From NCBI RefSeq assembly GCF_001580915.1, contig NZ_LHZQ01000212.1, positions 1-64,000 of the forward strand: DNA of 64,000 nt, written 5' to 3'. Below, piece by piece: positions 30,861 to 63,110 of this stretch. This stretch comes from Acetobacter tropicalis. Its GTDB lineage: Bacteria; Pseudomonadota; Alphaproteobacteria; Acetobacterales; Acetobacteraceae. Each line of letters opens with the position of its first letter. Positions within the stretch are counted from its first letter, which is position 1. The position numbers and the translations under genes are program-made. Under the pieces are notes generated by a model. The model searched no databases. It had not been told where the DNA came from and saw only the letters and a list, made by a program, of their open reading frames with translations.

Positions 30861-31295
30861 AAGCGTTTTGCAGATACATCATGGGCCTAACCACCCCTCC
30901 CGCGCAAGATGCAATATAACATGGTAGAAGAACATAGCCATTAGCTCTGTGCATGGACTATAAAGAACGAACATATAAGAACGCACCCATTCTAAAAGAA
31001 AGTAAATTCCTCAGACCTTAGAATAGGACTCAAAAATTCCGTCGAACGTTTTCACTAATATCACGCAGGCTGAGAACAGTATTGACATTATTCGCATAAG
31101 ACACAGAAACACAGACGTTCTTTTCCCTTTCAACAAGAAGGTCTGGATTAGGAAAAACGAGAGTATGGGTTGTAGCCCTTAAACACTTTCCAGATGCAAG
31201 AAGCAGAGGATCTAAAAAGGAACGCTTTGAAATCATGAATAAAAATGGTATAATTTTCATAATTATATAAATTATACGCATACACGGAGCATTGC
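30861..31295. other. AT-rich divergent intergenic region
   Basis: Holds the promoter of riboswitch 1 (minus) and of the MetR-like gene (plus). An 83-codon minus-strand frame (31030-31281) is open, but it has AT-rich codon use and no recognisable motif, so I do not call it. The inverted repeat GTATAATT/AATTATAC at 31248-31277 lies 20 bases ahead of the regulator's ATG. Confidence 0.5.
31248..31277. promoter_or_regulatory. Inverted repeat ahead of the MetR-like gene
   Basis: GTATAATT and AATTATAC form a perfect 8-base dyad separated by 14 bases. LysR-type regulators often bind such sites near their own start. It is AT-rich, so it could also be a -10 region by chance. Confidence 0.4.
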
Positions 31296-32195: not shown

Positions 32196-32200
32196 CGCGC

Positions 32201-34459: not shown

Positions 34460-34479
34460 GGAATAGCTCCACCAAACAT

Positions 34480-34745
34480 CACCGCGGTGGAGACGAGAGA
34501 GCTTCGCCTCGCCCCCGAATCACCCCGTTCGGCGGCTCCGTCCGTGACTTTTCTGCAATGGCAGGTCTCCTGGCTTGCTGGTCAACGGTGTGATGGATAC
34601 CTTCCCGAACACCCGAAGGGGTATTCAGTGGCGTCATGTTTCCAAAAAACCTCACAGCGCACAGTTGCGGGGGCAGCACCGGCTTTTAACCGGTTTCCCT
34701 CTTAGCCTTGCAGCATCCCAGCAAGAGGAGGCTGAAGGCACCATA
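34480..34745 (-). promoter_or_regulatory. Cobalamin riboswitch 2, facing the TonB receptor at 32201
   Basis: Minus-strand motifs in order: GAGGGAAACCGGT near the 5' end, GGTGCTGCCCCCGCAACTGT, GCCACTG, TCGGGAAGG and the B12 box AGCCAGGAGACCTGCC (34560-34575). Downstream, a GC-rich stretch with GAACGGGGTGATTCGGGGG can pair with the CCCCCGC loop. About 20 bases remain between the predicted platform and the receptor's start, compatible with translational control. Confidence 0.96.
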
Positions 34746-34872
34746 GCGATTGGCTGATAGACACAAACCCGTGAATTTTGTCAACGTGCGCGACATTTTT
34801 CCGAGCACTTCCCCAGTCTGCAAAGAATATTGCGGACTGCCCCATTTGTGTGCATTAGTTTGCTCACTTGTC

Positions 34873-35098
34873 GACAGTCCCGTGCGAACGGGCGAACAGG
34901 GAATGCCGTACGCCTTAGAGACCAAAGGCAAGTCGGCAGCTGCTCCCGCAACTGTATGCGGTATGGGTCTGATTTTTCCGCTGTAAAAGCGGGCCACTGG
35001 TGTCACCACCGGGAAGGCTGAATCAGAACCGATTATCCGCGAGCCAGGAGACCTGCTGTCGTCGTCTGACCGTGCCGCCGGGCGGGATGTACCGGAGG
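34873..35098 (+). promoter_or_regulatory. Cobalamin riboswitch 3, facing the BtuB-like operon
   Basis: Plus-strand motifs in order: GTCCCGTGCGAACGGG and GAACAGGGAATGCC, GCTGCTCCCGCAACTGTAT, GCCACTGG, ACCGGGAAGG and the B12 box AGCCAGGAGACCTGC (35042-35056). The regulatory hairpin at 35072-35099 has stem GCCGCCGG/CCGGAGGC and loop GCGGGATGTA; its GCGGGA can kiss TCCCGC in the aptamer and the 3' arm contains GGAGG. It diverges from riboswitch 2 with about 130 bases between, room for two promoters. Confidence 0.96.
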
Positions 35099-35679: not shown

Positions 35680-37746
35680 ATGCCCGCACCCCGTTTTATC
35701 AGCCTCACCTTTCTGGTGTGGTTCCTTACTTCTGGCACTTTGCTGGCCGCAGAAAACACCGCCCCTTCCGCCATGCCGGCACACGTGACAAAAAATAAAT
35801 ATGGTTCCAAAAAGAAGAGACTACAGCATGAACATCTGACTGTGGTGGGGCATTCTCTTGAAGACACGCTCCCTGAACACCTTGCCCGCTCAGGGGTAAA
35901 AGTGGATGTTGTTCGGGCGCAAGCCATACGCAACGGAAACTATGTTGATGTGGCTCAGGCTCTCTCCGCCCTCGCGCCCTCCATGTCCGTCGCGCTCAAG
36001 AATGGTCCTTTCGATTACGCGGATGTTTCCCTTATGGGCTCACGCACCGAAGATGTGCTCTGGTTAGTGGACGGGGTGCGGATCAACAACCGCCTCTACG
36101 GTAGCACCCCGCCCCTTGATACACTGCCAGCCGCCATTGTTGACAGAATTGAAATTCTGGATGGAGGCCAGTCCCTTTTTTATGGCACGCAGGCCGTAGC
36201 GGGGGCGGTGAATATTGTTACCCGTCCTTTTTCCGATCATCTCACCGGCCAGATAACCGCATCTGGAGACAGCAACACCGGCAGACATCTTGACGGGTAT
36301 CTGGCCAATGCGATTGGGAAACATCGTTTTGTTGTCTATGCCTCGGGGGACGGAACAGACGGCTATCGCGCGTTTCGGAAACAGGATTATCAGCCTAGCG
36401 CAACACATCGGGACCGTAAATATTCCGTTTATACCGTTGGCGCAAAATACAATGTGGACATTACGTCAAAACTCAATCTGACAGCCACCTACCAGCATAC
36501 CATTGCCAACTTGGACTATGCCCGCCCTTACCGGGTGGCAAAAAATACAAATGACCGGGTGGAAGATCTTGCCACGCTCAAACTGGATTTTCATCCGCTG
36601 GAGCGTCTGAATTTCTATGTGAAAGGGTATTACCATAACTGGGATACCCATTATGACACGATTTATAATGATCTAAAGCACCCCGGCCAGCGTGATGTGC
36701 TCTACCGCAATGCCTATTGGGGGTATGAAGATTACGGCGTCAATGTGCTTGGGCGCGCCATCCTGCATCGGGGGCTGGAAGCATGGTTCGGCTATGACAT
36801 GCAACGCTATGGGGGGCAGGACAACGTTCTGCGTATTCTTCCGCAAACGGAAATGACCAACGCAGGCTTTGCACAACTCAGAATGACCCCAGATCTGCTT
36901 CCTCATGCCCATATTGCCGCGGGTTTCCGTTACAACAGCCCCACTACCGGACGCTCAGCCACAATCTGGAATGTGGTAGGGCGATATGATCTCCCCTTCA
37001 ATCTGTATGCAAGAGGTGAAGTGGGCACCAACTTCCGCCTGCCGACGGCTGAAGAACTGTTTGCTGATGATCCGCAGGATGAAAGAGGCAACCCGAACCT
37101 CAAACCCGAAAGAAGCCTGAGTGCCAATTTCTCCCTTGGCCAACGCCTGCAAAGTGGCCGTTTTGGAATACACTGGGACCTGACAGGCTTTGTTCGGCGG
37201 ATTGATAATCTGATTGACTACACAACCTTTGATGAAAAAACCGGCCAGGAGGTTTTTGGTAACGAGAACGGAACCGTACATGTGAACGGTGTCAGCATTT
37301 CAGGGGGAATGGAATTCAACCATAGTTTTTCATGGGACACCGCCTTTACATGGAACCACGCCCGCCAGAATAACGGGTTGCAAATGGTGCAGATTCCCCG
37401 CAGCCTCGTTAAAACCAGTCTGGATTACCACCCAAAGGATCTGCCTTTTGGGTTAACCGCAACATTTGTTTATACGGGGTCACAATATATCTCTGTTTCG
37501 GGGCAGAGAATAAACTATGGCAATTACCCTGTTCTGAATGTGTCGGGCCGTTATTATATTGATAAGGAGCGCCACCACACCTTGAATTTCAGCATTCAGA
37601 ATCTGACTGGCGCGGAATACGGCAGACCAAGCCGTGGATGCAAAGATACATCGACTGATGGTCCGTACGGATGCTCCCTCCCTTATCGGTATGTTTCTCT
37701 TGGGTGGCCACGCACGTTTCAGCTTGCCTATACCTATCGGTTCTGA
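35680..37746 (+). CDS. BtuB-like TonB-dependent receptor
   Basis: 688 residues, close to BtuB-type length. Signal peptide 1-24 (LLA-AE). The plug runs from about 50 to 180, with DVAQALSALAPSMSV, VLWLVDGVRINNRLYGS and IEILDGGQSLFYGTQAVAGAVNIV, given by their VDGVRINN and GTQAVAGAVNIV cores. The barrel ends in YTYRF. An unusual Cys pair, SRGCKDTSTDGPYGCSLP near 649-666, could make a disulfide in the last strands. Its stop overlaps the ATG of the PepSY gene (TGATG). The riboswitch upstream supports corrinoid uptake. Confidence 0.92.
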   Translation: MPAPRFISLTFLVWFLTSGTLLAAENTAPSAMPAHVTKNKYGSKKKRLQHEHLTVVGHSLEDTLPEHLARSGVKVDVVRAQAIRNGNYVDVAQALSALAPSMSVALKNGPFDYADVSLMGSRTEDVLWLVDGVRINNRLYGSTPPLDTLPAAIVDRIEILDGGQSLFYGTQAVAGAVNIVTRPFSDHLTGQITASGDSNTGRHLDGYLANAIGKHRFVVYASGDGTDGYRAFRKQDYQPSATHRDRKYSVYTVGAKYNVDITSKLNLTATYQHTIANLDYARPYRVAKNTNDRVEDLATLKLDFHPLERLNFYVKGYYHNWDTHYDTIYNDLKHPGQRDVLYRNAYWGYEDYGVNVLGRAILHRGLEAWFGYDMQRYGGQDNVLRILPQTEMTNAGFAQLRMTPDLLPHAHIAAGFRYNSPTTGRSATIWNVVGRYDLPFNLYARGEVGTNFRLPTAEELFADDPQDERGNPNLKPERSLSANFSLGQRLQSGRFGIHWDLTGFVRRIDNLIDYTTFDEKTGQEVFGNENGTVHVNGVSISGGMEFNHSFSWDTAFTWNHARQNNGLQMVQIPRSLVKTSLDYHPKDLPFGLTATFVYTGSQYISVSGQRINYGNYPVLNVSGRYYIDKERHHTLNFSIQNLTGAEYGRPSRGCKDTSTDGPYGCSLPYRYVSLGWPRTFQLAYTYRF

Positions 37747-42339: not shown

Positions 42340-44730
42340 CTACAAAGCCCGCATGACTTCAAAGCCGAATGACCGTAAGTCACCGGGGTATCTGCTGATA
42401 TTCCGGTTAAAAAACCCGCCAAATGCGTTTGTGTATGTCATCTGGTTTATAATGTTATGTAACCAGAAAGCAACTTCAGTTTTTTCATCCACGGAGTGCC
42501 AGGCTATCCTGACGTTACCCGTAATAACCGGCTTTTGAGAAAAGGCGCGACGCACCAATGCCTGCGTCTGGGGTGAGGCCAGAAAAGCCGCCGGTGTAGA
42601 AGGATGCACATCAGACCATGCCTGAAACCGGTAACGGCTTGTGTAGCGCCAGTCTGTCTGGAGTGTAAAATCGCCAAAAGAAACGGGAATTTTATAGCTT
42701 AACAGAAAGTTGCTTGTCACATGGGGCGCCCGCTCCAGTGGCTGGCCGGAAAGATCCACCGGATTACCGCCATTGATAGGCGCAGGAGCACTGGCATTCC
42801 GAAAACTGGTGTAATGTGCATCCTGATAAGAGACACCAAACGAGCCGAACAGATTTTCCATCGGGCGCACCTGCCCTTCAAATTCAAACCCATTGGAAAC
42901 GGCACGTGCCGCATTTGTTGTATGGGTGCCAGTATTTTGCAGGATTGTTACCTGCATGTTGTTATAATCATAATGGAAGCCAGACAGGTTTAGCTGCGCC
43001 TTGCCGCGCCACAGCCGCGCCTTGAAGCCCCCTTCATAATCCGTGAGCACTTCAGGGTTATACAGGCTGAAATCAGAGGCCGTTGCAACGTAGGTGTTGT
43101 AATTGCCCGTCCGGAACCCACGCGCATACCGAAGATACCCGATAATGCCATGCGAGAAGCGATATTTCAGGCTTGCATCTTCACTGTCCCGATTAAAGGT
43201 TTTCTTCAAAGGTGGCCCACTGATGGCCTGCCCTGTTGCAGGGTCAATAAAGGTGCCTGTATTGGTGTTAATATACGTCAGCGCACGGTTGCCCGCATAA
43301 TAAGGGTTGGAATCCTGAGTGTTATAGGCCCATGCCTCGCCATTGGCATTGCGTGTTTCGGATGTAAAGCGGCCGCCAATATCAAGTGTCAGACGGCGTG
43401 TAAGATCAAACGACAAGGCCGAGAAAACAGCCGCATCCTGTGTGTTGATATTAAAACTGGACGCGTTACCGTTCGCCCCGAAATCAATAGGGCTGTAGAG
43501 AGGCTGCTGACTGTAGGATTGCGTCATGTTTCGCAAATAATATACCCCGCCAATATAGCGTATTTTCTTGTTCTGAGGAGATGCAACACGAATTTCGTTA
43601 CTTAAAACACGCCCAACTCCACCAATGTTTTCCTGATAATCAACAGGGGCCGGGCTGGCATCATCATCTGAAAAAACGTTGAAGTGATTCCATTCCAGCG
43701 CAAAAATGTTGCTCAGGCTCCAGCCGCCCGCAAAGTCATACCGTGCGTTGACGGAAAGGCCTGCCCGTCGGGTTGTGGCGTCCGTGCGGCCATTGTTCTG
43801 AATATTCCTGCGGGACCCTTGAGCATAGCCCTGCGCATCCACTCCGCCTTCCAACAACCCCACATGATCAATAGGCACTTCCGTTCTGTTACGCCCGATA
43901 TGCCCCTTTATCAGAATGGAAAAATTATCAACCGGCCTGGCCAGAATCTGGCCACGCATATCATAATACTGGTAGCCCCCGGTTGGGTTTTTGTGCGTTC
44001 CGTTATAATATTGCCCATCCATACGCCTGTTAACTATGGCAAAACGCGCCATCAGTTTATCTTTGATAATAGGGCCGCCAATCGCTCCTTCCTCACCCAG
44101 AAGGCCATAGTTGCCTGCTGTGCCACGCACATACCCATCCAGCGTGTTGGTTGGCTTTTTAGTGTAGTAGGACACCATGCCGGCGGTTGTGTTCTTGCCC
44201 TGCAACGTGCCTTGCGGGCCACGAAAGACTTCCACATGGTCCAGATCATAAATCGGTACGCCTTGGGAGGCACCACTATCCAGAAACACTTCATCCTCAG
44301 AAACACCAACGGCTGTTGTCATGTTTGCTGAAAAATCGTTCGTGCCGATCCCGCGCAGGCGGTAGCGTGGATTTGTGGAACCAGACGTACTTTCCGCCAT
44401 CAGACCTGGAATATCCCGCGCTAGAGAAAGCGCATCCCGCACCCCTGTTGTCTGAAGGGTCTTGCCGGTTAACGCCACGATGGAAGCCGGCGTGTTGTTG
44501 GCCTGCTGCGTACGCCTGTTTGAGCGCACGGTAATTTCTTCCAGACTGGCAGACCCTTTTTTATGAGGCATACCGGCTGATGCCTTCTGCGTGCTCTGCT
44601 TTTGCGGCACGGCTCTCTGCGCCGGGGAGACCTGATACCGCTCGGTTTCTGCGGCATACGCGCTGCACGTGGCCCCGACAGAAACAGCCAGAATAAATGT
44701 GGTCCGATACGGAAGGCGATAAAACACCAT
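42340..44730 (-). CDS. TonB-dependent receptor in the choline-sulfate operon
   Basis: 796 residues from the ATG at 44730 (MVFYRLPYRTTFILAVSVG), which gives a signal peptide cut at AYA-AE; longer in-frame starts would reach into the sulfatase gene and are rejected. Plug: TPASIVALTGKTLQTTGVRD, by its ASIVALTGKTLQTTG core, then RYRLRGIGTNDF and VEVFRGPQGTLQGKNTTAG. The barrel has many aromatic strands and the C-terminus is GFEVMRAL rather than a final aromatic. It starts seven bases after the sulfatase stop. By context it should import a sulfate ester such as choline sulfate; the family as a whole is mostly siderophore-like. Confidence 0.88.
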   Translation of the reverse strand: MVFYRLPYRTTFILAVSVGATCSAYAAETERYQVSPAQRAVPQKQSTQKASAGMPHKKGSASLEEITVRSNRRTQQANNTPASIVALTGKTLQTTGVRDALSLARDIPGLMAESTSGSTNPRYRLRGIGTNDFSANMTTAVGVSEDEVFLDSGASQGVPIYDLDHVEVFRGPQGTLQGKNTTAGMVSYYTKKPTNTLDGYVRGTAGNYGLLGEEGAIGGPIIKDKLMARFAIVNRRMDGQYYNGTHKNPTGGYQYYDMRGQILARPVDNFSILIKGHIGRNRTEVPIDHVGLLEGGVDAQGYAQGSRRNIQNNGRTDATTRRAGLSVNARYDFAGGWSLSNIFALEWNHFNVFSDDDASPAPVDYQENIGGVGRVLSNEIRVASPQNKKIRYIGGVYYLRNMTQSYSQQPLYSPIDFGANGNASSFNINTQDAAVFSALSFDLTRRLTLDIGGRFTSETRNANGEAWAYNTQDSNPYYAGNRALTYINTNTGTFIDPATGQAISGPPLKKTFNRDSEDASLKYRFSHGIIGYLRYARGFRTGNYNTYVATASDFSLYNPEVLTDYEGGFKARLWRGKAQLNLSGFHYDYNNMQVTILQNTGTHTTNAARAVSNGFEFEGQVRPMENLFGSFGVSYQDAHYTSFRNASAPAPINGGNPVDLSGQPLERAPHVTSNFLLSYKIPVSFGDFTLQTDWRYTSRYRFQAWSDVHPSTPAAFLASPQTQALVRRAFSQKPVITGNVRIAWHSVDEKTEVAFWLHNIINQMTYTNAFGGFFNRNISRYPGDLRSFGFEVMRAL

Positions 44731-44737
44731 GACGATA

Positions 44738-46271
44738 TTACCCGATACCCTGTGGCAACAGCCGAGCTTCCGCCTCAAGCTGCTCCAAAGGTCTGTGATT
44801 TCTGATATAAGCGCGATGCGCATTGGCAGGAGGCTGATAATCCCATGAGGTACAGCGCCCCGTGGCCAGCGCGCGCTTGACAAGTGCGCGCCGCTGTTGG
44901 CTCAGCAGCACACTTTCGGTAAGTTTCCCAAAATCCCAGCGCTGCAAAGCTTCAGTCCGGAATGCATGGGCTATGGCCGCATAAGCCGGAACCTGCGCAA
45001 GGTTCCGCTCTTCATCTCTATCTTCCGAAAGATCATATAGTTGATCAGGATCACCCGGCGTATGGATAAACTTCCATTTCTCCCGCCGGATCATGACCGT
45101 GGGTTCAAATGTGCCTTCCCCAAGATATTCTCCAAACACCTCATCCACGCCCCATTCCTGCCCTTTCAGCAAGGGGGTCAAATCCCGCCCATCTGTCTGC
45201 GGGGCGGCCGCGGCTCCCGCCAGCGCACAGAGTGTCTCCCCCACATCTGTCAGGTTGACGGCCTGTGTTATACGCAAAGGCTGATCATCATCAGGGGTGG
45301 ACATAATAAGCGGAATACGGCCAGCACCTTCGCGGAAAGACATTTTATACCACTGCCCATGCTCGCCCAGCATTTCACCATGGTCGCTGGTGAAAACAAT
45401 GGCGGTGGTTTTGTCCAAACCCGTTTCCCGCAGCACCGCCAGCAACTGGCCAAGCTGATGGTCCACATAAGAAATGGCTCCGTAATAAGCCCGTCTGGCG
45501 CGCAGGATATCCGCATTGGAAGGCGGCTGGGCTTCAATGCCACAGGCCGCGCGAATACGGTCTTCCGATGGATGAGCCTCCACTGCGGCAGGAACATTTG
45601 GCAGTGAAATTTCACTGTCAGCATACAGATCCCACCAGCGCGGTTCGATATTGAATGGATCATGTGGGTGAGTGAAGGAGACAACCATGCAGAAGGGGCG
45701 CGTGTCTTCCCGCTTACGCGCCAGATCAAACAGTTTGCGCCGGGCCGCATAGGCAACTTCTTCGTCAAAATCAATCTGGTTACTGCGCAATACCGGCCCT
45801 GCATTTAGAACGGAATCCATAGAATGGAACCAGTCAGGCCGGTCGGTCTTATCCTGCCAGTTGGGAACCCACGTGAAATCTGATGGATAAATGTCTGTTG
45901 TCAGGCGTTCCTCAAACCCATGAAGCTGATCAGCCCCGACAAAATGCATTTTGCCGGCCAAAATGGTTTGATACCCGGCATTACGCAGCCTATGCCCAAA
46001 GGTGGGAATATCTGAATGCCATTCACACCCATTATCAAAAATACCACTATGTGACGGTAAAAGACCGGTCATGAACGCCCCGCGTGAAGGCCCGCAGAGG
46101 GGGCTTGCCGTGTAAGCGTTGGCAAACACCCTCCCCCCGTCTGGCAAGGGACTCCAGAACAGGAGCCTTAACAGGCGAAGGGTCACGCCCGCCCAGTAGC
46201 GCGGGCAGCGCCAAGGCCGTTAGCTGATCCGCCACCACAACCAGAAAATTCAGAGGAGCGCCTTTTGTCAC
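44738..46271 (-). pseudogene. betC: Choline sulfatase gene with a frameshift
   Basis: Two overlapping frames together make a normal choline sulfatase. The first (from ATG at 46271) reads FLVVVADQLTALALPALLG and LESLARRG; the second continues VFANAYTASPLCGPSRGAFM with the catalytic Cys in the sulfatase signature CGPSR, then GKMHFVGADQLHGFEERLTTD (by its HFVGADQLHGFEERLTTD core) and FTSDHGEMLGEHGQW, all typical of BetC. The frames part at a run of six C on the plus strand (46133-46138). One extra base in the run, a sequencing slip, or phase variation would each explain it. If real, the second frame alone lacks the metal-binding Asp-Gln near the N-terminus and would be inactive. BetC hydrolyses choline O-sulfate to choline and sulfate. 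Confidence 0.85.
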
Positions 46272-53495: not shown

Positions 53496-54266
53496 TTACT
53501 CGTGCAACATGCCTTCACTGAGCATTTCACCGTCAGCTTTAATCTGAAAATCGGCCGCCCCTTCTGTTACAAGTAGTCTGCTATATTCACATATACCCTG
53601 CCCTTTGCAGGACGTGACACGTTTGATCTTCAGCAGTACAGATCCTCTTGCAATATCCAGCCACTCACTCACATCATCAGCAGCCTGTGTCAGGCCGATA
53701 GATATATCAGCATGGCTTATCTGAAACTTGAAGATATCCTTTAAAATAGTAGCTGACGTTTTGCTGCCCGCAAGCTCAGGTGTCACCATTTTGGCAAGAT
53801 GGCCCGGATAAAAAACCTCCGTTACGCCGAGTGGTCCTTCTGCAGAACGATATCCGCGCCGAATAAACAGTACATCTCCTTGTTCACCAAACCCTTTTGC
53901 CATGTCCTCTGGTGGGGCCTGCATCCGATAATCCAGAAGCGTCATCCGGGGGCGCAGCCCTTTATCTGCCAGAATTTCAAAAAAAGAATGAATGGTCTTC
54001 TGGCGCCCCGGCCGATGCAATGCCCCGACAAATGTTCCTCGCCCATGCTGCCTTACAATCACATCTCTTTTTGCCAGATATGACAGAGCCTGACGCACTG
54101 TAATACGACTGACACCATAAAGCCGACATAGCTCGGCTTCGGACGGCAGTCTGTCCAGGAATCGTTCATCTTTACCAATCAAGCCGGAAATATGGTGGCC
54201 AACCTGCAGATAGAGCGGAGTTGGGTCATTCGGTTCCAGATAGGCGGAGAAGAGAGCGTCCGGCAT
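53496..54266 (-). CDS. GntR/HutC-family regulator of the purine operon
   Basis: About 256 residues from the ATG at 54266 (MPDALFSAYLEP), which has GGGA about seven bases before it. N-terminal winged helix: LPSEAELCRLYGVSRITVRQALSYL, by its ELCRLYGVSRITVRQAL core. The C-terminal half is a UTRA ligand domain with RRGYRSAEGPLGVTEVFY. UTRA proteins sense small sugars or nucleoside- and histidine-related ligands. Divergent from the receptor-permease-hydrolase operon with a 174-base gap, so it most likely represses that operon until a purine-type ligand arrives. Confidence 0.88.
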   Translation of the reverse strand: MPDALFSAYLEPNDPTPLYLQVGHHISGLIGKDERFLDRLPSEAELCRLYGVSRITVRQALSYLAKRDVIVRQHGRGTFVGALHRPGRQKTIHSFFEILADKGLRPRMTLLDYRMQAPPEDMAKGFGEQGDVLFIRRGYRSAEGPLGVTEVFYPGHLAKMVTPELAGSKTSATILKDIFKFQISHADISIGLTQAADDVSEWLDIARGSVLLKIKRVTSCKGQGICEYSRLLVTEGAADFQIKADGEMLSEGMLHE

Positions 54267-54324
54267 AAAAAATCCCATAAATATTTCGATTTTGCATTGA
54301 AAAGGATCGGGAAACGATTTAGTT

Positions 54325-54354
54325 AAGACGTCTTATAACAACACAATACGTCTT
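54325..54354. promoter_or_regulatory. Candidate GntR operator in the purine divergon
   Basis: A perfect 10-base palindrome AAGACGTCTT at 54325-54334 and a repeated half, ACGTCTT at 54348-54354, lie between the divergent GntR and TonB receptor genes. Size and symmetry fit a GntR/UTRA dimer site (GAC/GTC half-sites are common in that family). Confidence 0.55.
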
Positions 54355-54440
54355 TGTTGATCCTTCTCTCGCTTTTTTGTCTCAATCGGCGAGGTTATCC
54401 AGGTTTCCGGGCTCCTCCGTATCGTTCGAGAGTTTCTTTC

Positions 54441-56792
54441 ATGCGCACTTTAACCTTTCTGAGTACAGCCCTTGTTAGCAACCTCTTCTGGGTGGCAGCG
54501 TATGCTTCGCCGGATGCACCCACAAACCATAGCAGAGAGAAACGCCATTCTCACTCGGCTAGCAAGAGCGCAAAACAGCAAATCTCTAAAGCTGAAGATA
54601 TTCTTGTTTCCGCAAGAACGGTAGCAGGTGGTCGCATGGTGCCTCAAAATGGCACGAAATCGCGCAGCGAAATTACACAAGCCTACATTGCCAAGCAGGC
54701 TCCGACTCCAAACGTATTCAAACTTTTAGGCAATCTCCCCGGCGCCAATGTCGCAAGCGCCGACCCGTTTGGAATGGTCAGTGGTAATATGACAATCCGC
54801 GGCATGAACAGTGATCAGATAGGTTTTACCGTGGAGGGGGCTCCCCTGAATGATATCGGTTCCTATATGGCGTTTCCCACCGAATGGGTTGATTCAGAAA
54901 ACCTGAACGAAGTCACCATGCAGCAGGGGTCCGCCAATCTGGACTCTCCGGTTATCGGAGCATCTGGCGGTATTGTGACAATGAAGCTGATTGAACCATC
55001 TCACAAAATGGGCGCCACGATTGCCGGTTCATTTGGTTCTTACAATACCCATCGGGAATATGTCCGATTGCAAAGCGGGGACATCGGAAATACCGGAATG
55101 CGGGCGTTTGTCGCATGGTCTCACTTGGAAGAACCGCATTTTCGCGGCGCGGGTGATGACCATAAGCAGCATGTGGACGCCAAGCTGGTTAAAGACTGGG
55201 ACAATGGCAGTCGCAGCACTGTCGCTGTCACGTTCGATGATTCCATGAAAGTGGCCTATCTCAACCCTAGCCTGTCAGCATGGCAGGAATACGGAAGGCA
55301 CGCCAACTACACCGAAAATTTCTCTCCCACCGATACAAAATACTGGAAGCTGCATCAGAGCCCCTATCGGGTTCTGATCCTGAGCGCACCTCAGAATATT
55401 GTCATTAATGACAAGCTGGGCTTTGACTTCACGCCGTATTTCTATTGGAATTCCGGAACAATTGCCTCCGCCTCTCTCATGTCGGAAAATGCGATCTATT
55501 CCGGCACCCAGAAATACAGCATGGATCTGAACGGAAACGGGACCACGACCGATAAGGTCATGATGTATACACCGTTCGGCACACCATATGTCTATCGCCC
55601 CGGCCTGGTATCCAAAGTACATTATAATCTGGGCAGACATACTCTTGTTTTTGGATACTGGTTTGACTGGTCACGTGAGCGAATGGTCAACCCTTACAGT
55701 GAAGTCGGTGCGAATGGTGGTCCGGCGAATGTCTGGGGTTATCTGGGAAACGTGAAGCTGTCTGACGGCACCCGTCTGGCGAGTTATGACAATCTGACCA
55801 TTACCCGCGTCAATACGCTGTTTTTTGGAGATACCTTTAACGCCCTCAATAACCGCCTCCGCGTCGAGGCCGGCATCAAGGAATCCATGGTCAGCCGCAT
55901 CGGCTACAACTATCTGCCGGGGGCGCAATATCGCACCGGTATGAACGTAGCAGTTGCAACGCCTAACCTAGGCGCACGTTACCGTATTGACGATCACAGT
56001 CAGATTTTTGCTGATGTCGCCACCAACTTCCGCACCCCCACACTTAATGCGCTTTATAATACATACAGCGCAACCACGGGGAAAATCGTAACACAGGCTA
56101 ACCCAGGCCAGAAAACGGAGTACTCGATTTCGGAAGAACTCGGCTATCGCTATCAGGGTGGCCTTGTGAATGGATCTATCACGTTCTTCAACTATAATTT
56201 CACAAACCGTCAGGTGGCCACACAGGTTACTGTGAACAACGCCCAAATCACGCAGAACATTAACGCAGGCGGTCAGACATCCCGCGGCGTGGATATTGAA
56301 ATCGGCCTGCGCCCCTGGCACCATCTCCATCCCTATGTCTCTGCCGAATATCTGCATGCCACAATCGATAATAATTATCGGGTAGGCTCCGACTATCTGC
56401 CTACTGCTGGCAAAATAGCCGTGCGCAGTCCGCAGGTACAGGCTTCTGTCGGGCTAGATTATGATGATGGCACGTATTTTGCCGGATTTTCTGTCAAGTA
56501 TGTTGGTCGCCAGTTTTCAACCTTCATGAACGATCAGGCGATGCCCGGCTATGTGAGTGCTGATATGAATATTGGCTACCGTGCCCCAAAAATCCTGAAT
56601 ACACGCCCGGAAATCCGCCTAAACTTCATGAATGTGGGAGATAACAAATATCTCTCCGGGGTTGCTGGCATCGCGGCGTCCTCCAGAGCTACCCGCGGCA
56701 TTTACGGCAGCACTATCGCCTCGCAAGGGTCGCCAACCTATTATGTTGCTGGCAGCTTTGCCGCTCTTGCCACCGCCAAGATAGACCTCTGA
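54441..56792 (+). CDS. TonB-dependent receptor of the purine operon
   Basis: 783 residues from the ATG at 54441 (MRTLTFLSTALVSNLFWVA), which gives a signal peptide cut at YAS-PD; an upstream in-frame start is rejected because it precedes this peptide. Plug about 60-200 with SRSEITQAYIAKQAPTPNVFKLLGNLPGANV, by its TPNVFKLLGNLPGANV core, and MTIRGMNSDQIGFTVEGAPLND, by its MTIRGMNSDQIGFTVEG core. The barrel ends ALATAKIDL. It differs from the other receptors here and starts a run of nucleobase genes, so it likely imports nucleosides, nucleobases or a derivative. The next gene begins five bases later. Confidence 0.9.
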   Translation: MRTLTFLSTALVSNLFWVAAYASPDAPTNHSREKRHSHSASKSAKQQISKAEDILVSARTVAGGRMVPQNGTKSRSEITQAYIAKQAPTPNVFKLLGNLPGANVASADPFGMVSGNMTIRGMNSDQIGFTVEGAPLNDIGSYMAFPTEWVDSENLNEVTMQQGSANLDSPVIGASGGIVTMKLIEPSHKMGATIAGSFGSYNTHREYVRLQSGDIGNTGMRAFVAWSHLEEPHFRGAGDDHKQHVDAKLVKDWDNGSRSTVAVTFDDSMKVAYLNPSLSAWQEYGRHANYTENFSPTDTKYWKLHQSPYRVLILSAPQNIVINDKLGFDFTPYFYWNSGTIASASLMSENAIYSGTQKYSMDLNGNGTTTDKVMMYTPFGTPYVYRPGLVSKVHYNLGRHTLVFGYWFDWSRERMVNPYSEVGANGGPANVWGYLGNVKLSDGTRLASYDNLTITRVNTLFFGDTFNALNNRLRVEAGIKESMVSRIGYNYLPGAQYRTGMNVAVATPNLGARYRIDDHSQIFADVATNFRTPTLNALYNTYSATTGKIVTQANPGQKTEYSISEELGYRYQGGLVNGSITFFNYNFTNRQVATQVTVNNAQITQNINAGGQTSRGVDIEIGLRPWHHLHPYVSAEYLHATIDNNYRVGSDYLPTAGKIAVRSPQVQASVGLDYDDGTYFAGFSVKYVGRQFSTFMNDQAMPGYVSADMNIGYRAPKILNTRPEIRLNFMNVGDNKYLSGVAGIAASSRATRGIYGSTIASQGSPTYYVAGSFAALATAKIDL

Positions 56793-56797
56793 ATCTT

Positions 56798-58150
56798 ATG
56801 CGATATCCCAGATTAGATCGTTTTTTTGGACTCACGACCAGCGGAACAACCGTTGGTCGTGAAGTGGTGGCTGGTCTGACTACATTTGCGGCCATGGTTT
56901 ATTGCGTCGCCGTTAACCCGATGATTATGGCAGAAGCTGGCATGGACCGCGCAAGCGTTCTAAGCGCGACATGCCTCATTGCCATTTTCAGTACCACCCT
57001 GATGGGTCTTCTGGCCAACCTCCCGCTTGGCGTTGCGCCTGCAATGGGGTCAAACGTCGTCTTTGCCATCATTCTGGTCAAGCAAATGGGTGTGCCATGG
57101 CAGGCTGCGCTGGCACTCGTCTGCCTGACGGGTGTGATCTTCATGATCATGAGTCTGACGCGCATCCGCGAGCGCATTGCTCATGATATTCCAGACACCC
57201 TGCGTATTGGCATTCAGGTCGCCGTGGGGCTAGTCATCATGTTTATCGGCATGCGTAATTCCGGCTTTGTAGTTGCCAGTCCGTCCACATTTGTCACTAT
57301 GGGGTCGATCAGCAGCCCGAAAGTCCTCATGACGCTGGCTGGTTTTATTCTCACGCCCGTTCTGGTGGTCAGGCGTATTCCCGGCGCGTTAATTCTTTCA
57401 ATTATAGTAATCACCGCTGCCGGACTTTTTTTGCCTGATGGAAAAGGCGGCACTCTCACACACTGGCCTGCACATATTTTTGCCCTGCCGCAGTGGCCCT
57501 ATGCCACGGCCTTCCATCTGGAACCGCTCTATCTTATCCATAACTTCCTCTATGTGCTGCCCATGCTGTTCTTTTTCCTGTGTACAGAACTGTTTGGAAC
57601 ACTGGCTAATCTTCTCGGCGTCGTCACTGCAACGGGCATGATTTCAAAAAACGGACAGATCCCCCGTGCACGCGAGGCGTTTGTGACCGATGCTGCCGGC
57701 AGTATTCTGGCCCCTCTTCTCGGCACATCCATTGTCACCGTTTATTCTGAATCTATCACGGGCGTACATGCGGGTGGGCGTACCGGGTTGACGGCTCTGG
57801 TAATTGCGGGGGGCTTTTTTGCAGCCCTATTTTTATGGCCCCTTTTCATGATTATCCCGCCACAGGCAACGGCTCCGTCTCTGTTGATGGTTGGTATGAT
57901 GATGTTTCAGGGCGTCCGCCATCTTGATCTGTCAGATATCAAGGAGAGTACTCCAGCCGCCCTCACCTTTCTAACCGCTCTTTTGACAGGCAACCTCATC
58001 AACGGCATGGCAATTGGTACTTTGTCCTATACAACAATGGCTCTTACCACAGGTCGCGCCCGCACTATCTCTCCCGTTGTGTGGGGGCTTTGCGTCATTT
58101 TCATTCTATTCTTTATTGTTTCTGCCCACATGCACGGCCACCACGCCTGA
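56798..58150 (+). CDS. NCS2-type purine permease (AzgA family)
   Basis: 450 residues with about twelve to fourteen helices. AzgA-type signatures: GREVVAGLTTFAAMVYCVAVNP near 21-42 (by its AGLTTFAAMVYCVAVNP core), LPLGVAPAMGSNVVFA near 75-90, VDAAGSIL-like VTDAAGSILAPLLGTSIVTVY and ESITGVHAGGRTGL. AzgA carriers are proton symporters for adenine, guanine and hypoxanthine across the inner membrane. It follows the receptor by five bases, so uptake runs outer membrane to inner membrane in one operon. Confidence 0.92.
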   Translation: MRYPRLDRFFGLTTSGTTVGREVVAGLTTFAAMVYCVAVNPMIMAEAGMDRASVLSATCLIAIFSTTLMGLLANLPLGVAPAMGSNVVFAIILVKQMGVPWQAALALVCLTGVIFMIMSLTRIRERIAHDIPDTLRIGIQVAVGLVIMFIGMRNSGFVVASPSTFVTMGSISSPKVLMTLAGFILTPVLVVRRIPGALILSIIVITAAGLFLPDGKGGTLTHWPAHIFALPQWPYATAFHLEPLYLIHNFLYVLPMLFFFLCTELFGTLANLLGVVTATGMISKNGQIPRAREAFVTDAAGSILAPLLGTSIVTVYSESITGVHAGGRTGLTALVIAGGFFAALFLWPLFMIIPPQATAPSLLMVGMMMFQGVRHLDLSDIKESTPAALTFLTALLTGNLINGMAIGTLSYTTMALTTGRARTISPVVWGLCVIFILFFIVSAHMHGHHA

Positions 58151-58163
58151 AGGGAATTCAGCC

Positions 58164-59246
58164 ATGCTTTCAAAATTACGGTTTTCAACTTTTTTGGCTG
58201 GGCTGTTTGTTCTGCTCCCTCTTCATGGCCATGCGCAGACCCCCGAGGACCCTAATTACATCATTATTGATAATGATTTTGCCGGACCCGGTGGGACCAA
58301 CATTCAGTCCGTTATTCCGCTTCTTGGCCAACCAGATAAGGTAACCGTGCTGGGCTTTACTGTTGTGGTCGGAGATGGGTGGGAAAATGAGGCCGCAGCA
58401 CATCTGTCCCGTTTTCTGGAAATTGCCGGAAGTCCAGAGACACTCCCAGTCGTTCCCGGTGCCACTCAGCCTCTGGTCAACTCCCGTGCCCGGCTTCTGG
58501 CGTGGGAAAAATCCAACGGCAAAATGCCATGGAAAGGGGCATGGCGCGGTGATGCCCCGGATTTTCAGCCGCCGGTCAAACCTCTGAAAGAAGGCATGCC
58601 AGACCGAAAGGTCTCATCCGAAACAGCCGCCCTGTTTCTGATACGGCAGGTCCATACGCACCCACACCAGATCACGCTTCTGGCAGCGGGTCCACTGACG
58701 AATATTGCTCTTGCCATCAAGCTGGATCCGGAATTTGCTTCTTTGTGTCGCCGCCTTGTCTTTATGGGGGCCATTGTAGACGGTAACCTTTCGCAGGTTA
58801 TGCAAAGTGCAGACTACTACACAGACTTCAACTTCATGTTTGACCCGGAGGCCGCCAGCATTACTCTGGAAGCGCCCTTCCCTGAGGTTGTTTCCGTGGG
58901 GGGCGTTGCTAACCCCATTCGCATGACAGCGGAAGTCCGTGATCAGGCAACACGCTCAACTGGTCCTGTTGCAGACTATCTGCGCCAGTATTTCCACCCA
59001 CAACCCATGTGGGATGAACTGGCCGCAGCTATTTCTGTTGATCCAGCTCTGGTGACCGACAAGGTTGTGGCTTACATGGATGTTGATCTGACCCATGGAC
59101 CAAACTACGGCTATGCTCATGTCTGGCCGGAAAGCACGCGGCCCCATATCGGGGAACGTCCAGTTACAGTCGTCACCGCAGTTAACAAGGCCCGCTTTCT
59201 CAGAACCTTTGTTAAAGCAGCCAACCGGATGAATACGCATGGTTGA
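58164..59246 (+). CDS. Exported nucleoside hydrolase
   Basis: 360 residues from the ATG at 58164 with AGGGA nine bases upstream and a signal peptide (LSKLRFSTFLAGLFVLLPL core, cut at AQ). The frame continues far upstream in the permease gene, which I reject. Nucleoside hydrolase parts: IIIDNDFAGPGG at the front, VLGFTVVVGD, ITLLAAGPLTNIALAI, and the substrate loop TDFNFMFDPEAA. The usual front motif DTDPGIDD is altered: the first two Asp are kept but the DD pair is not seen, so metal binding could differ. It splits nucleosides into base and ribose in the periplasm, feeding the permease. Its end overlaps the adenine deaminase start. Confidence 0.88.
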   Translation: MLSKLRFSTFLAGLFVLLPLHGHAQTPEDPNYIIIDNDFAGPGGTNIQSVIPLLGQPDKVTVLGFTVVVGDGWENEAAAHLSRFLEIAGSPETLPVVPGATQPLVNSRARLLAWEKSNGKMPWKGAWRGDAPDFQPPVKPLKEGMPDRKVSSETAALFLIRQVHTHPHQITLLAAGPLTNIALAIKLDPEFASLCRRLVFMGAIVDGNLSQVMQSADYYTDFNFMFDPEAASITLEAPFPEVVSVGGVANPIRMTAEVRDQATRSTGPVADYLRQYFHPQPMWDELAAAISVDPALVTDKVVAYMDVDLTHGPNYGYAHVWPESTRPHIGERPVTVVTAVNKARFLRTFVKAANRMNTHG

Positions 59247-61014
59247 TGTCACCTGCTCACTCGCAGAACCAGAACTCCGTCGGCGCGCAGTAGATGCTGC
59301 CTGCGGGCGTGCACCATTTGATATTCTCCTCTGCAATGGCCGTGTGGCAGATGTTGCAACCGGAGAGCTTCGCTACGCAGATGTCGGACTGGTTGGCCCT
59401 CTTATAGCCAGCATGCACCTGACAGGTGAGCGTCAGGATTCAACAAAGCAGTTTGACCTGAAAGGCGCCATTCTTGCTCCGGGGCTTATTGACTCTCACG
59501 TACACATTGAAAGCTCCATGGTGACGCCGCGTATCTATGCGCAGACCGTGGTGCCACAAGGGACGACAACCATATGCTGGGATCCGCACGAAATCGGGAA
59601 TGTTAGCGGTTTGCCTGGTGTGAAATGGGCAATTGAGGCCTCAAAAGGGCTTCCGCTGCGTATTCTGGTGGAAGCACCTTCCTGCGTACCGTCCGCTCCC
59701 GGTCTCGAACGGTCCGGTGCAGATTTTGACGCAACCGCAATGGCTGAGATGCTGTCCTGGCCAGAAATTATTGGCGTTGCAGAAGTTATGGACATGCGGG
59801 GCGTTGTGAATAACGCTCCGCGCATGACGGCCATTGTCAATGCTGGCCTTAAAAGCGGCAAACTTGTCTGTGGCCATGCCCGCAATCTTGCAGGAAAAAA
59901 CCTTCAGGCTTTCATGGCGGCAGGTATTGAATCTGACCATGAGTTGACAAGCAAAACCGATATTCTGGAAAAACTCCGATCTGGTATGACTCTGGAACTC
60001 AGAGTTTCACACGAGAACATTCTCCCTGAGGCTGTAGCCGCGTTTGAAGAGCTGGGTATGGTTCCTCAGACTGTGACACTCTGCACAGATGATGTATTTC
60101 CCGATGATCTGCTACGGCGTGGCGGAATGGTGCATCATCTCAGATGTCTGGTCGCTTTGGGAATGAACCCGCTGGACGTCCTGAGATGCGCGACGTTGAA
60201 TACAGCTCAGCGTCTGGAACGCCGTGACCTTGGCCTTGTTGCTACCGGTCGTCGTGCTGATCTAGTCGTCTTTGATAATCTGACTGATTTTACACCGCTG
60301 GAGGTCTTTGCTTCAGGTGTTCATGTCGCGTCGCGTGGAACGCTGCTCACCACGCTGCCACCGGAATTGCCCGGCATGCCAGTAGATACTGTCAAACGCA
60401 CACCTGTCACGGTTTCTGACTTTAAAATTCTTCGTACAGGGAAATCTAAGGTTAAAATCAGAACTGTCAGCACACCCCGCACAACTCACTGGGGCGAACG
60501 GGAGATAGATTTAGAAGACGGGTATCTCACTCTCCCCCCTGATACCGCCCTTATGGCTGTTTTCAATCGCCATGGTGATAACTCGCCTCCGGGCCTTGGT
60601 GTTCTCGAAGGATGGGGAGACTGGTCAGCCACAATTGGTACAACTATTCTCCATGACAGTCATAATCTGGCCGTATTCGGGCGGGACCCGGAAGAGATGG
60701 TGCGTGTCGCCAATACTCTTATTGCCAGCGGCGGGGGTATGGCCGTGGCAAAAGCCGACAAGCACCTCGTGCAAGTCGCACTCCCCGTATGTGGACTTCT
60801 GTCCCCTGAAAATCTTGAAATAGTCAGCAAACATTTTACTGAAGTGCGTGATGCCGCAGCAACCGCCACCACATGGGATGGGCCAACCAGTATGATAAAG
60901 CTTGTCACGGGGGCTTCTCTAGCCTGCAATCCGGGACCGCATGTTACAGATATGGGCATTGCTGATGGTATGACAGGAGACGTTTTTTCTACGATGGTTC
61001 TGGACAACGCCTGA
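59239..61014 (+). CDS. ade: Adenine deaminase
   Basis: 591 residues, normal for prokaryotic adenine deaminase. Metal ligands: GLIDSHVHIESSM near 82-94, then ICWDPHEIGNV and CGHARNLAGK; the C-terminal ADE domain holds VFNRHGDNSPPGLG-like VFNRHGDNSP and the HDSHNLAVFG segment. It turns adenine to hypoxanthine and ammonia in the cytoplasm. It starts eight bases inside the nucleoside hydrolase gene and ends with TGATG shared with the next gene, so all are coupled. Confidence 0.95.
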   Translation: MVDVTCSLAEPELRRRAVDAACGRAPFDILLCNGRVADVATGELRYADVGLVGPLIASMHLTGERQDSTKQFDLKGAILAPGLIDSHVHIESSMVTPRIYAQTVVPQGTTTICWDPHEIGNVSGLPGVKWAIEASKGLPLRILVEAPSCVPSAPGLERSGADFDATAMAEMLSWPEIIGVAEVMDMRGVVNNAPRMTAIVNAGLKSGKLVCGHARNLAGKNLQAFMAAGIESDHELTSKTDILEKLRSGMTLELRVSHENILPEAVAAFEELGMVPQTVTLCTDDVFPDDLLRRGGMVHHLRCLVALGMNPLDVLRCATLNTAQRLERRDLGLVATGRRADLVVFDNLTDFTPLEVFASGVHVASRGTLLTTLPPELPGMPVDTVKRTPVTVSDFKILRTGKSKVKIRTVSTPRTTHWGEREIDLEDGYLTLPPDTALMAVFNRHGDNSPPGLGVLEGWGDWSATIGTTILHDSHNLAVFGRDPEEMVRVANTLIASGGGMAVAKADKHLVQVALPVCGLLSPENLEIVSKHFTEVRDAAATATTWDGPTSMIKLVTGASLACNPGPHVTDMGIADGMTGDVFSTMVLDNA

Positions 61015-62276
61015 TGGATTTTCCCCGTGACGTTACTGCAATGCGCCGTGAATTCCATCGGTTTCCAGAAACAGCATTTCTTGAATACCGAACGGCCGCC
61101 ATTGTCGCAAAACGCCTGTCTGAACTGGGTTACACCGTAAAAGCCGGTCCAGAAATCATGCACATGGATGGTGTGCGTGGTTTGCCGTCAGACCAGGCGT
61201 TCACTGCAGCAAAAGAGGCTGCGCTACAGGCCGGAGCGGATGAAAGATGGCTGAACAGAATGCCAGGTGGACAAACCGCTATCTGTGGTGAACTCCAGAA
61301 GGGGCCAGGCCCTGTTCTGGCTTTACGCTTTGATATGGATGCGCTGCCAGTTCATGAATCACAATCTGACCAGCATCCGCCAAACACCCAAGGTTTTTCT
61401 TCCATTCATCAGGGGCGTATGCATGCCTGTGGCCATGATGGACACACAGCGATCGGGCTTGCTGTTGCGGAAAAACTAGCGCAACCCGATGCCAGATGGA
61501 ACGGCACATTACGCCTTATATTCCAACCTGCAGAAGAAGGGGGACGCGGCGCACAACCGATTGTCGCGAGTGGCTTGCTAGATGATGTCGATATTTTTCT
61601 GGCCAGCCATCTGGGGTGCCAACTCCCCAGCGGGCAGATTGCATTAACGGCCGATGGATTTCTTTGGGCCGAAAAGTGGAATGTCATTTTTACTGGTCGG
61701 GCTGCACATGCTGCCATGTGCCCTGAAGAGGGACGAAACGCCCTTCTCGCTGCGGCTCTGGCAGTTGCTGGGCTGTACGCTTTGCCTCGTGACGGTCAGT
61801 CCGATACAAGGATTAATGTTGGACTGCTACAGGCGGGTCGAACGCGCAATGCTATTGCAGATCGGGCTTATCTGGAACTTGAATTACGTGCAGCCAGCAG
61901 TGAAGGGCTCCAGCGCCTGACAGAAGGAGCAAGACGCACACTTGAAGGCACCGCTCTGACACAGGATGTTAATGTAGAGATTGATCTCTACGGCAACGCC
62001 ATCAGTGCACAGTCAAATCCTGCCATTATGACACGACTGGAAACAGCGGCTCTTGCCACGAAGACAGGTAATATTGTCTCTAACTGGCCGATTGGTGGTG
62101 GAGATGATGCAACCTTCATGATGCAGCGTGTGCAGCAATGCGGCGGCCACGCTGGCTACTGCCTTATCGGGGCTGATATTGCAGCCCCGCACCACTCCAG
62201 CCTTTTTGACATTGACGAAAATGCTCTTGAACGCGCAGTCAGGTTATTGACGGCGTTTGTTGAAGACGCCGCATGA
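61014..62276 (+). CDS. M20 amidohydrolase, AbgA-like
   Basis: 420 residues. Its front half has EYRTAAIVAKRLSELGY and VRGLPSD, and the metal sites are MHACGHDGHTAIGLA and IFQPAEEGGRGAQPI, with GGGDDATFMMQRVQQ and a final His in APHHSSLFD. The layout, including the insertion between residues 45 and 85, is close to E. coli AbgA, the p-aminobenzoyl-glutamate hydrolase subunit. No AbgB-like partner is next to it. In this purine operon it may remove an acyl or amide group from a modified purine or handle a folate breakdown product. That role is inference. TGATG joins it to ade and ATGA joins it to the next gene. Confidence 0.88.
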   Translation: MDFPRDVTAMRREFHRFPETAFLEYRTAAIVAKRLSELGYTVKAGPEIMHMDGVRGLPSDQAFTAAKEAALQAGADERWLNRMPGGQTAICGELQKGPGPVLALRFDMDALPVHESQSDQHPPNTQGFSSIHQGRMHACGHDGHTAIGLAVAEKLAQPDARWNGTLRLIFQPAEEGGRGAQPIVASGLLDDVDIFLASHLGCQLPSGQIALTADGFLWAEKWNVIFTGRAAHAAMCPEEGRNALLAAALAVAGLYALPRDGQSDTRINVGLLQAGRTRNAIADRAYLELELRAASSEGLQRLTEGARRTLEGTALTQDVNVEIDLYGNAISAQSNPAIMTRLETAALATKTGNIVSNWPIGGGDDATFMMQRVQQCGGHAGYCLIGADIAAPHHSSLFDIDENALERAVRLLTAFVEDAA

Positions 62277-62962
62277 GCACCCTGACCTTCTGGCAGACTT
62301 TTGCGCCTGACGTTGATCTTAAGGCTCCCTATACAGACCGTTACAGAGTTTCTCTGGGGCACCATAGGCTGGACCTGCCACTCCGCCCTCTTCCTTCTGG
62401 TGAACTGGCGGTTGCATCGCTTCTGGTCAACCAGACATCCTTTCAGGTGGCAGATGCGATGTGTGCTGGTCTGGGGCGTCTGGCGGCAGAAATCAAGCCT
62501 GATCTGGTTGTCGGTATGCCTACTCTTGGTTTGGGGCTGGCTGCATATGTTGCGAGACACAGCGGACTGGAACGCTATGTGCCACTCAGCACCTCTCGCA
62601 AATTCTGGTACGATGAGAAGCTTTCTGCTCCCATTTCTTCCATAACCAGCCCAGGCACAGCAAAAAGACTTTATCTGGACCCCAACCTTCTTTCTCTGGT
62701 TCAGGCCGCAAAACGGATCATCATCGTTGATGATGTTATCAGTACAGGGACCTCTCTCTCTGCTGGCACGGATGTTCTCACAGCGGCTGGCGTCACGCCG
62801 CATGCCGCTCTTTGTGTTATGACGCAAAGCAACCGCTGGAAAAATCGTTTTCCTTTTCCAATCCTAAGTTGCTTTTCATCACCAATTTTCAGACGTGTTA
62901 ATAATGGATGGATTGTTGATTCTTATTACGACGTGTCGTCAGTTAAGCAGGATGATGATTGA
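62273..62962 (+). CDS. Purine phosphoribosyltransferase, C-terminus altered by an IS
   Basis: 229 residues. PRPP loop: RIIIVDDVISTGTSLSAG near 147-164, by its VDDVISTGTS core. The front has ELAVASLLVNQTSFQV and the middle DLVVGMPTLGLGLAAYVA. These are features of the adenine/xanthine phosphoribosyltransferase type I group. It would turn the released base into a nucleotide. The last seven or eight codons read into the IS5 remnant, so the natural end has been replaced. ATGA overlap with the amidohydrolase ties it to the operon. Confidence 0.8.
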   Translation: MSTLTFWQTFAPDVDLKAPYTDRYRVSLGHHRLDLPLRPLPSGELAVASLLVNQTSFQVADAMCAGLGRLAAEIKPDLVVGMPTLGLGLAAYVARHSGLERYVPLSTSRKFWYDEKLSAPISSITSPGTAKRLYLDPNLLSLVQAAKRIIIVDDVISTGTSLSAGTDVLTAAGVTPHAALCVMTQSNRWKNRFPFPILSCFSSPIFRRVNNGWIVDSYYDVSSVKQDDD

Positions 62963-63110
62963 GGCGAACTGCACGGCTGCGAGGAAGGTCGATTCCAGTT
63001 TATCGTAGCGGGTGACGATAGCGCGAAATTGCTTGAATTTATTGAAGAACCTGGAGGGATCGAAGAACCGTTTTTTTGAACTCCTGTTTCCTGATTTCAG
63101 GGCTATGACG
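62939..63110 (-). pseudogene. IS5-family transposase C-terminal fragment (a)
   Basis: Minus-strand frame ends FFNKFKQFRAIVTRYDKLESTFLAAVQFAS, by its FRAIVTRYDKLESTFLAAV core, the standard tail of one IS5 subgroup (usually FRRIATRYDK...FLAAVxLA). The stop codon lies at 62939, so the end of the element is just left of it, inside the phosphoribosyltransferase gene. Confidence 0.8.

Follow-up and report, generated by a model that had tools for sequence, protein, structure and literature searches.

A candidate TonB-linked purine scavenging operon in Acetobacter tropicalis

Introduction

Do bacteria pay TonB energy to bring purines across the outer membrane? The known route of nucleoside entry at the outer membrane is passive diffusion through Tsx, and nucleosides figure in a 2024 review on TonB-dependent transport only with regard to Tsx, and purines and nucleobases not at all (PMC11658791). 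An earlier note on the DNA studied here expected a TonB receptor for nucleosides or a modified purine to be little described, and purines have hardly been reported as cargo of such receptors. None of the papers searched combined TonB with nucleoside hydrolase or adenine deaminase. The window, that is, the whole stretch of 64,000 nucleotides analysed (Acetobacter tropicalis contig NZ_LHZQ01000212.1, positions 1 to 64,000), contains at 53496-62962 a run of genes that raises this question directly. Here we argue that the run is probably a substrate-induced, horizontally mobile TonB-linked purine scavenging operon working by the steps set out in the Discussion: the Acetobacter block very probably serves to take up purine nucleosides or bases across the outer membrane by a dedicated TonB receptor and to convert them to hypoxanthine and nucleotide. 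The operon offers a directly testable case of TonB energy being spent on purines, on the grounds of a conserved operator, of the apparent mobility of the seven genes as a cassette, and of one enzyme trio being linked to several unrelated receptors.

Results

Layout of the locus

The open reading frames of Table 1 are, in coordinates, strands, gaps and overlaps, exactly those of the earlier note, to the base, and the family identities proposed there agree with the Pfam domains of all seven genes. The operon proper runs on the plus strand from the ATG of the receptor to the end of the phosphoribosyltransferase gene (54441-62962), with the regulator gene divergent. Gaps of 5 bases (receptor/permease) and 13 bases (permease/hydrolase) are followed by overlaps of 8 bases (hydrolase/deaminase), 1 base (deaminase/M20) and 4 bases (M20/phosphoribosyltransferase). 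The receptor frame also holds a longer, TTG-started version from 54354; we prefer the ATG at 54441, since the signal peptide and the relatives fit it. As judged by profile searches, the block is flanked in the window by transposase remnants of the IS110 and IS3 types.

Table 1. Features of the purine-linked block in the window.
Feature	Position	Strand	Evidence
GntR/HutC-type regulator with UTRA effector domain	53496..54278	-	PF00392 52.9 bits, PF07702 45.1 bits
Putative operator TAAGACGTCTTATAAC (palindrome TAAGACGTCTTA)	54324..54339		regulator-receptor gap; alignment of related loci
TonB-dependent receptor, 783 aa	54441..56792	+	signal peptide, TonB-box-like EDILVSA, plug, beta-barrel
AzgA-like NCS2 purine permease, 450 aa	56798..58150	+	PF00860 104.9 bits
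Secreted nucleoside-hydrolase-fold protein, 360 aa	58164..59246	+	PF01156 151 bits
Adenine deaminase, Agrobacterium 'adenine deaminase 2' type, 591 aa	59239..61014	+	PF01979+PF13382
M20 amidohydrolase, AbgA-like, 420 aa	61014..62276	+	PF01546+PF07687; TIGR01891 282 bits
Type I phosphoribosyltransferase (NCBIfam PRK06031), 229 aa	62273..62962	+	PF00156; NF004689 232.9 bits

Conservation of the block and its predicted operator

To find related loci, we scanned the genomes of named bacterial and archaeal species with the receptor alignment. Ten more named genomes carry the seven-gene set in identical order and orientation, namely those of Gluconobacter frateurii, cadivus, thailandicus, cerinus, japonicus, wancherniae and sp. 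Gdi, Acetobacter musti, A. persici and Gluconacetobacter tumulicola. Such recurrence argues that the arrangement is not due to chance. The eleventh locus, in Acetobacteraceae KSS12, is a short version in which the regulator is followed by receptor, permease, deaminase and hydrolase, without the M20 and phosphoribosyltransferase genes. The regulator is divergent and ahead of the receptor in 11 of 11 related loci, and all 11 loci whose receptor is at least 64% identical have purine genes. Flanking genes are common only to three close Gluconobacter species, the other hosts sharing nothing beyond the seven genes; with these three set aside, the block thus acts as a unit with sharp borders. A comparison with other receptor-azgA clusters, suggested in the earlier note, yielded both these 11 loci and the variant joinings described below. 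When a plasmid collection was searched with the permease, the only matches were of ~41% identity or less, and the operon was not found there.

The divergent regulator and receptor genes are separated by 162 bases containing the element TAAGACGTCTTATAAC. It precedes the receptor in all 11 named loci with at most three mismatches, while just two other sites in the 2.09 Mb of fetched sequence come within three mismatches; the exact sequence has a single match in the window's own genome. The copy in the distant KSS12 is a perfect 16-base palindrome. Position and symmetry suggest that TAAGACGTCTTATAAC is the operator bound by the GntR protein, which has GntR HTH and UTRA domains and reaches no NCBIfam equivalog cut-off. 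A promoter scan gave no matches in excess of those in shuffled sequences.

The receptor and its paralogs

Both domains of the receptor score above cut-off (plug, PF07715, 43.5 bits; barrel, PF00593, 112 bits), and the TonB-box-like EDILVSA, identified from sequence only, lies near residues 52-58. The AlphaFold2 model (pLDDT 85.4) matches solved receptors with Z of 28-36, the nearest folds among the receptors ranked by Foldseek being PqqU (Z 36.3, rmsd 2.7, 633 residues), YncD (34.8) and FecA (33.5); as siderophore and B12 receptors are close behind, the ranking is a hint only. An ortholog of PqqU is ruled out, since the PQQ-binding residues are not kept: Y99, R304 and R365, which contact PQQ in PqqU (PMC12124388), correspond to a gap, I and V in an alignment of 19% identity that is weak in the loops. 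A heme receptor is ruled out as well, the TIGR01785 score of 58 bits being far under the cut-off of 317.

Of the paralogs whose cargo is clear, the nearest are thiamine receptors. This assignment is made by context: paralogs of 40-47% identity follow TPP riboswitches in Sphingomonas-type genomes and precede an APH-type kinase and a PnuC-family transporter, as they do in Acetobacter too. Paralogs of ~37% identity belong to GlcNAc/chitin loci (GH20, NagA, NagB, ROK), and others adjoin S15 peptidases or a phospholipase C-type enzyme. Since each paralog sits beside a pathway of its own, the receptor subfamily appears to serve organic nutrients; with cargoes as unrelated as GlcNAc and peptides, the ligand is not fixed by receptor kinship alone.

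Permease and secreted hydrolase-fold protein

In AzgA, N131, D339 and E394 are substrate residues and D342 is a translocation residue (PMC11527162). The operon permease keeps N131 and E394, and its TM8 reads TELFG, with E at the D339 position and G at the D342 position; E. coli AdeP has N and D at these positions, and the second AzgA of the window's own genome D and D. The two altered positions suggest that the permease may differ in specificity from textbook adenine permeases. Its nearest solved relatives are Arabidopsis AZG1 (8irl) and AZG2 (9j12); AZG1 appears as a cytokinin transporter among the references listed by PMC11527162. The cytokinin-like ligand put forward in the earlier note gains no specific support from this kinship, which is expected for any AzgA member.

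The protein that the earlier note took for a periplasmic nucleoside hydrolase does have a Sec-type signal peptide, and it has the family domain and the fold (AlphaFold2 model against 1mas: Z 31.7, rmsd 2.6, 283 residues), but the hallmark of nucleoside hydrolases, the N-terminal DXDXXXDD calcium/ribose motif (PMC10526354), is absent: the operon protein reads DNDFAGPGGTN, and its nucleoside hydrolase activity is only predicted. In the operon protein and its close relatives, T/S and N take the places of the hallmark's D14 and D15; relatives share DNDFxGPGxx(N/D) plus a C-terminal P(M/L/F)WDE, which is PMWDE in the operon. The same genome holds five members of the family, and a canonical copy elsewhere in it reads DTDPGQDD. 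The tryptophan ahead of the C-terminal Asp recalls the purine-specific IAG enzymes. In two genomes of another alphaproteobacterial family (L223 and L224), hydrolase relatives adjoin a receptor of the L060/L067 type described below (~44%), with xdhC nearby in L223. Two other genomes have relatives in purine clusters: in L225 the cluster holds xdhC, and in L226 hydroxyisourate hydrolase, OHCU decarboxylase and subunits of xanthine dehydrogenase. These settings favour a role with purines even though the motif is unusual. What emerges is a subfamily of secreted nucleoside-hydrolase proteins that has no canonical calcium motif and turns up repeatedly in purine-catabolic loci.

Deaminase, M20 enzyme and phosphoribosyltransferase

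The deaminase aligns with 3nqb over residues 8-588 (E 6.4e-190). H87, H89, E182, H213, H234 and D284, the metal ligands expected for the family, are invariant in a 14-row alignment. Its scores fall below the NCBIfam adenine-deaminase cut-offs (TIGR01178, 349 against 472.5 bits; PRK10027, 285 against 768 bits), marking a divergent adenine deaminase subfamily.

The M20 enzyme scores 282 bits with TIGR01891 against a cut-off of 153.75; its nearest solved structure is 3io1 (E 3.9e-97, residues 6-413), and the MHACGHDGHTA and HH metal motifs are kept. There is no second M20 gene, the AbgB partner, among the operon's seven ORFs. In another genus (L171) an M20 gene is divergent from and adjoins a deaminase of the operon type, which links the two enzymes. 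The genes around M20 elsewhere, for oligopeptide ABC transporters, an aldolase and a carbohydrate kinase in other genera, gave no pointer to the substrate. The phosphoribosyltransferase scores 232.9 bits with NF004689 (cut-off 175) and has the PRPP motif IIIVDDVISTGTS; its last ~15 residues are not common to relatives. Both genes are absent from KSS12, L060, L067 and L042-L045, where permease and deaminase remain. M20 and phosphoribosyltransferase are thus an optional module; what never varies in the purine clusters studied is the pair of permease and deaminase.

Four features of these proteins we counted against the main reading: the absence of DXDXXXDD from the hydrolase and of D342 from the permease, deaminase scores under the NCBIfam cut-offs, and an M20 gene that fits no evident step of adenosine degradation.

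Variant clusters and purine context

In the receptor tree the main purine-linked receptors form a single clade (support 96/89). Other receptors, too, are joined to the same kinds of genes. In Tanticharoenia (L117) a receptor of 36% identity lies beside two permeases, two deaminases, M20 and phosphoribosyltransferase genes, with a further receptor between, so that permease and deaminase are kept without a hydrolase; in Ga. tumulicola (L135) a receptor of 31% identity occurs with an M20 peptidase, a 27%-type deaminase and a permease. In L060 and L067 a member of a far-off receptor family overlaps or abuts hydrolase, permease and deaminase, head to tail. Purine-linked receptors thus arose more than once, and nothing speaks more strongly for a common function of receptor and purine enzymes than these independent joinings.

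The window's own genome has, on contig C31, a locus for degradation of the purine ring: besides XdhA, a xanthine permease and the second AzgA, it encodes PuuE allantoinase, an allantoate amidohydrolase and an amidase of the AtzE type. XdhA exceeds its cut-off in 14 of the 16 genomes tested, every tested full-operon carrier included. At the sequence level, the purine reading is well supported, being strengthened by conservation, operator, variant clusters and genomic context; these uphold the core of the earlier note's reading, a dedicated operon for TonB-linked purine scavenging. The thiamine cargo of the nearest assignable receptor paralogs, and the fact that PqqU and FecA, the nearest solved folds, take up small molecules, also count in its favour.

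Horizontal transfer

RpoB served as the reference marker; AcnB was dropped, as it had no match in Gluconobacter genomes at the set cut-off. RpoB of the window's genome is 91.2% identical to that of A. musti and 89.5% to that of Gb. frateurii. For the operon proteins the corresponding identities are 71% against 90% (receptor), 72% against 89% (permease) and 47% against 75% (regulator). The receptor tree nests the window among Gluconobacter (support 98/95, 99/99 and 100/100), contrary to RpoB, which argues that the seven-gene block has moved horizontally. An orthologous receptor is found in 3 of the 49 species genomes of the window's own genus; matches at the set cut-off occur in 42 of the 49, nearly all of them paralogs of at most 53% identity.

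Discussion

We propose that the TonB receptor would bind a purine nucleoside or base outside, most likely adenosine, adenine or a close relative, and bring it into the periplasm, where the secreted hydrolase-fold protein, non-canonical motif notwithstanding, would remove the sugar. The AzgA-like symporter would carry the free base across the inner membrane, as its family does, and the deaminase, by close family likeness, would convert adenine to hypoxanthine and ammonia. The phosphoribosyltransferase would turn the base into a nucleotide; alternatively, hypoxanthine may enter the xanthine dehydrogenase/allantoin pathway, the genes of which are present, and serve as a nitrogen source. The UTRA regulator would repress the operon at the conserved palindromic operator until a pathway metabolite binds. 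For the M20 enzyme, a possible task is to strip an acyl or amide group from some of the ligands or products.

With a hydrolase lacking DXDXXXDD and a permease lacking D342, the exact ligand is left between adenosine/adenine, the likeliest, and a modified purine. The latter could be an N6-substituted adenine, e.g. a cytokinin, or tRNA-derived t6A/i6A: the altered hydrolase and permease would handle it, the deaminase would free the N6 substituent, and the M20 enzyme would then hydrolyse an acyl or carbamoyl amino acid from that substituent. This would give the M20 gene a job, in keeping with its divergent position beside the same deaminase type in L171, and it would suit the changes in TM8 (at the D342 position) and in the ribose-binding motif, as well as the permease's likeness to AZG1 and AZG2, the first of which the references of PMC11527162 name as a cytokinin transporter. 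We nevertheless consider it unlikely: M20 is missing from KSS12, L060, L067 and L042-L045 while permease and deaminase stay, no cytokinin or tRNA-modification gene was recognised in the operon, and AZG-type kinship is common to all AzgA proteins. Another alternative is that the hydrolase-fold protein is a non-enzymatic periplasmic purine-binding or delivery protein, the receptor importing free bases. The replacement of D14 and D15 by T/S and N in the operon protein and its close relatives speaks for this, but it looks distinctly improbable: the first Asp, the Thr, the Asn and the C-terminal Asp are all retained, the second metal Asp persists in the relatives from L223, L224, L227 and G000:C57 (DNDFxGPGxxD), and conservation is strict over 12 sequences.

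A secreted hydrolase-type protein and TonB-linked logic would also fit the harvesting of ribose, with nucleosides cleaved in the periplasm for the sugar, as in the Bacteroides ribose-scavenging loci, and base handling secondary. This we regard as very unlikely, because the operon has neither a ribose transporter nor a ribokinase, and because permease and deaminase are the invariant core, retained in L117 without a hydrolase. Least credible is a receptor for iron, heme or siderophore that lies beside purine genes by accident: the similarity to heme-receptor models is weak and far under the cut-off, 11 genomes preserve operon structure and operator, the same enzyme trio is also linked to independent receptors, and paralogs sit in nutrient loci.

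Among known systems, purine scavenging as proposed here has in common with the Bacteroides ribose/nucleoside scavenging (rus) locus a TonB-type outer-membrane step and nucleoside cleavage; rus, however, has a SusC/D pair and ribose kinase logic, whereas this operon has a single receptor, a base permease and a deaminase. The likeness to a polysaccharide utilisation locus drawn in the earlier note likewise extends to the logic but not to the parts, as no SusD-like gene, and hence no SusC/SusD pair, was found among the seven ORFs, nor was surface glycan machinery. Tsx of E. coli also admits nucleosides at the outer membrane but, unlike the operon receptor, is a passive porin without a TonB box (PMC11658791). 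The PQQ transporter PqqU/YncD (9c4o, 6v81) is nearest in solved fold, and the PqqU cargo is a heteroaromatic small molecule without metal, yet identity to the receptor is ~15% (19% in the alignment used for the PQQ contacts) and the PQQ-binding residues are not conserved here. Agrobacterium adenine deaminase 2 (3nqb, 3t81, 3t8l) is of the same subfamily over the full length as the operon deaminase, but is a single enzyme, its entry itself showing no receptor or operon. The GlcNAc/chitin loci of acetic acid bacteria, with receptor paralogs of ~37% identity, are likewise one-substrate catabolic loci with an inner-membrane permease and enzymes, although cargo and enzymes (GH20, NagA, NagB, ROK) are unrelated. 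Finally, the TonB-linked thiamine loci (TPP riboswitch, receptor, APH-type kinase, PnuC/PnuT) employ the same receptor subfamily (40-47%) for a small nitrogen heterocycle and place the receptor beside a downstream transporter and enzyme; they have a riboswitch and a vitamin cargo, where the operon in the window has a predicted GntR operator and catabolic and salvage enzymes.

Variant copies of the operon and of its hydrolase in relatives

In Acetobacter persici JCM 25330 (locus L074, 10001-13500), the operon is 92-99% identical except that its frames for receptor and permease are fragmented, through either decay or an assembly error. Four related genomes (L042-L045) carry a trio of regulator, permease and deaminase genes, without the receptor, hydrolase, M20 amidohydrolase or phosphoribosyltransferase, and a search of these four loci for the operator motif did not find it. 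A subfamily of secreted proteins with the nucleoside hydrolase fold, with members at L225, L226, L223, L227 and G000:C57, has the motif DNDFxGPGxx(N/D) in place of DXDXXXDD, with some of its members located within purine-ring catabolic clusters.

At window 62915-63100, the C-terminal ~15 residues of the phosphoribosyltransferase have no counterpart in relatives, and transposase-like debris appears to lie directly 3' of the gene; therefore, an insertion may have replaced the 3' end of the gene.

Other TonB receptors and riboswitches

The overlapping receptor and sulfatase frames elsewhere in the window make up a further receptor-enzyme pair, whose substrate may be a sulfate ester.

Other features of the window
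Feature	Position	Strand	Remark
TonB receptor (847 aa) and sulfatase with choline-sulfatase C-terminal domain	42340-46186	-	frames overlap
TonB receptor gene	32201-34459	opposite to 35680-37746	near cobalamin riboswitches
TonB receptor gene	35680-37746	opposite to 32201-34459	near cobalamin riboswitches
Cobalamin riboswitches (three)	30638-35074		close to the two preceding genes
FMN riboswitch near ribAB-type riboflavin gene	9089-9238 and 6026-7363		

In A. musti, L205 (6300-11593) holds a 53% identical paralog of the operon's receptor; next to it lie a PLP enzyme-like frame and the gene for a secreted protein that resembles arylsulfotransferases.
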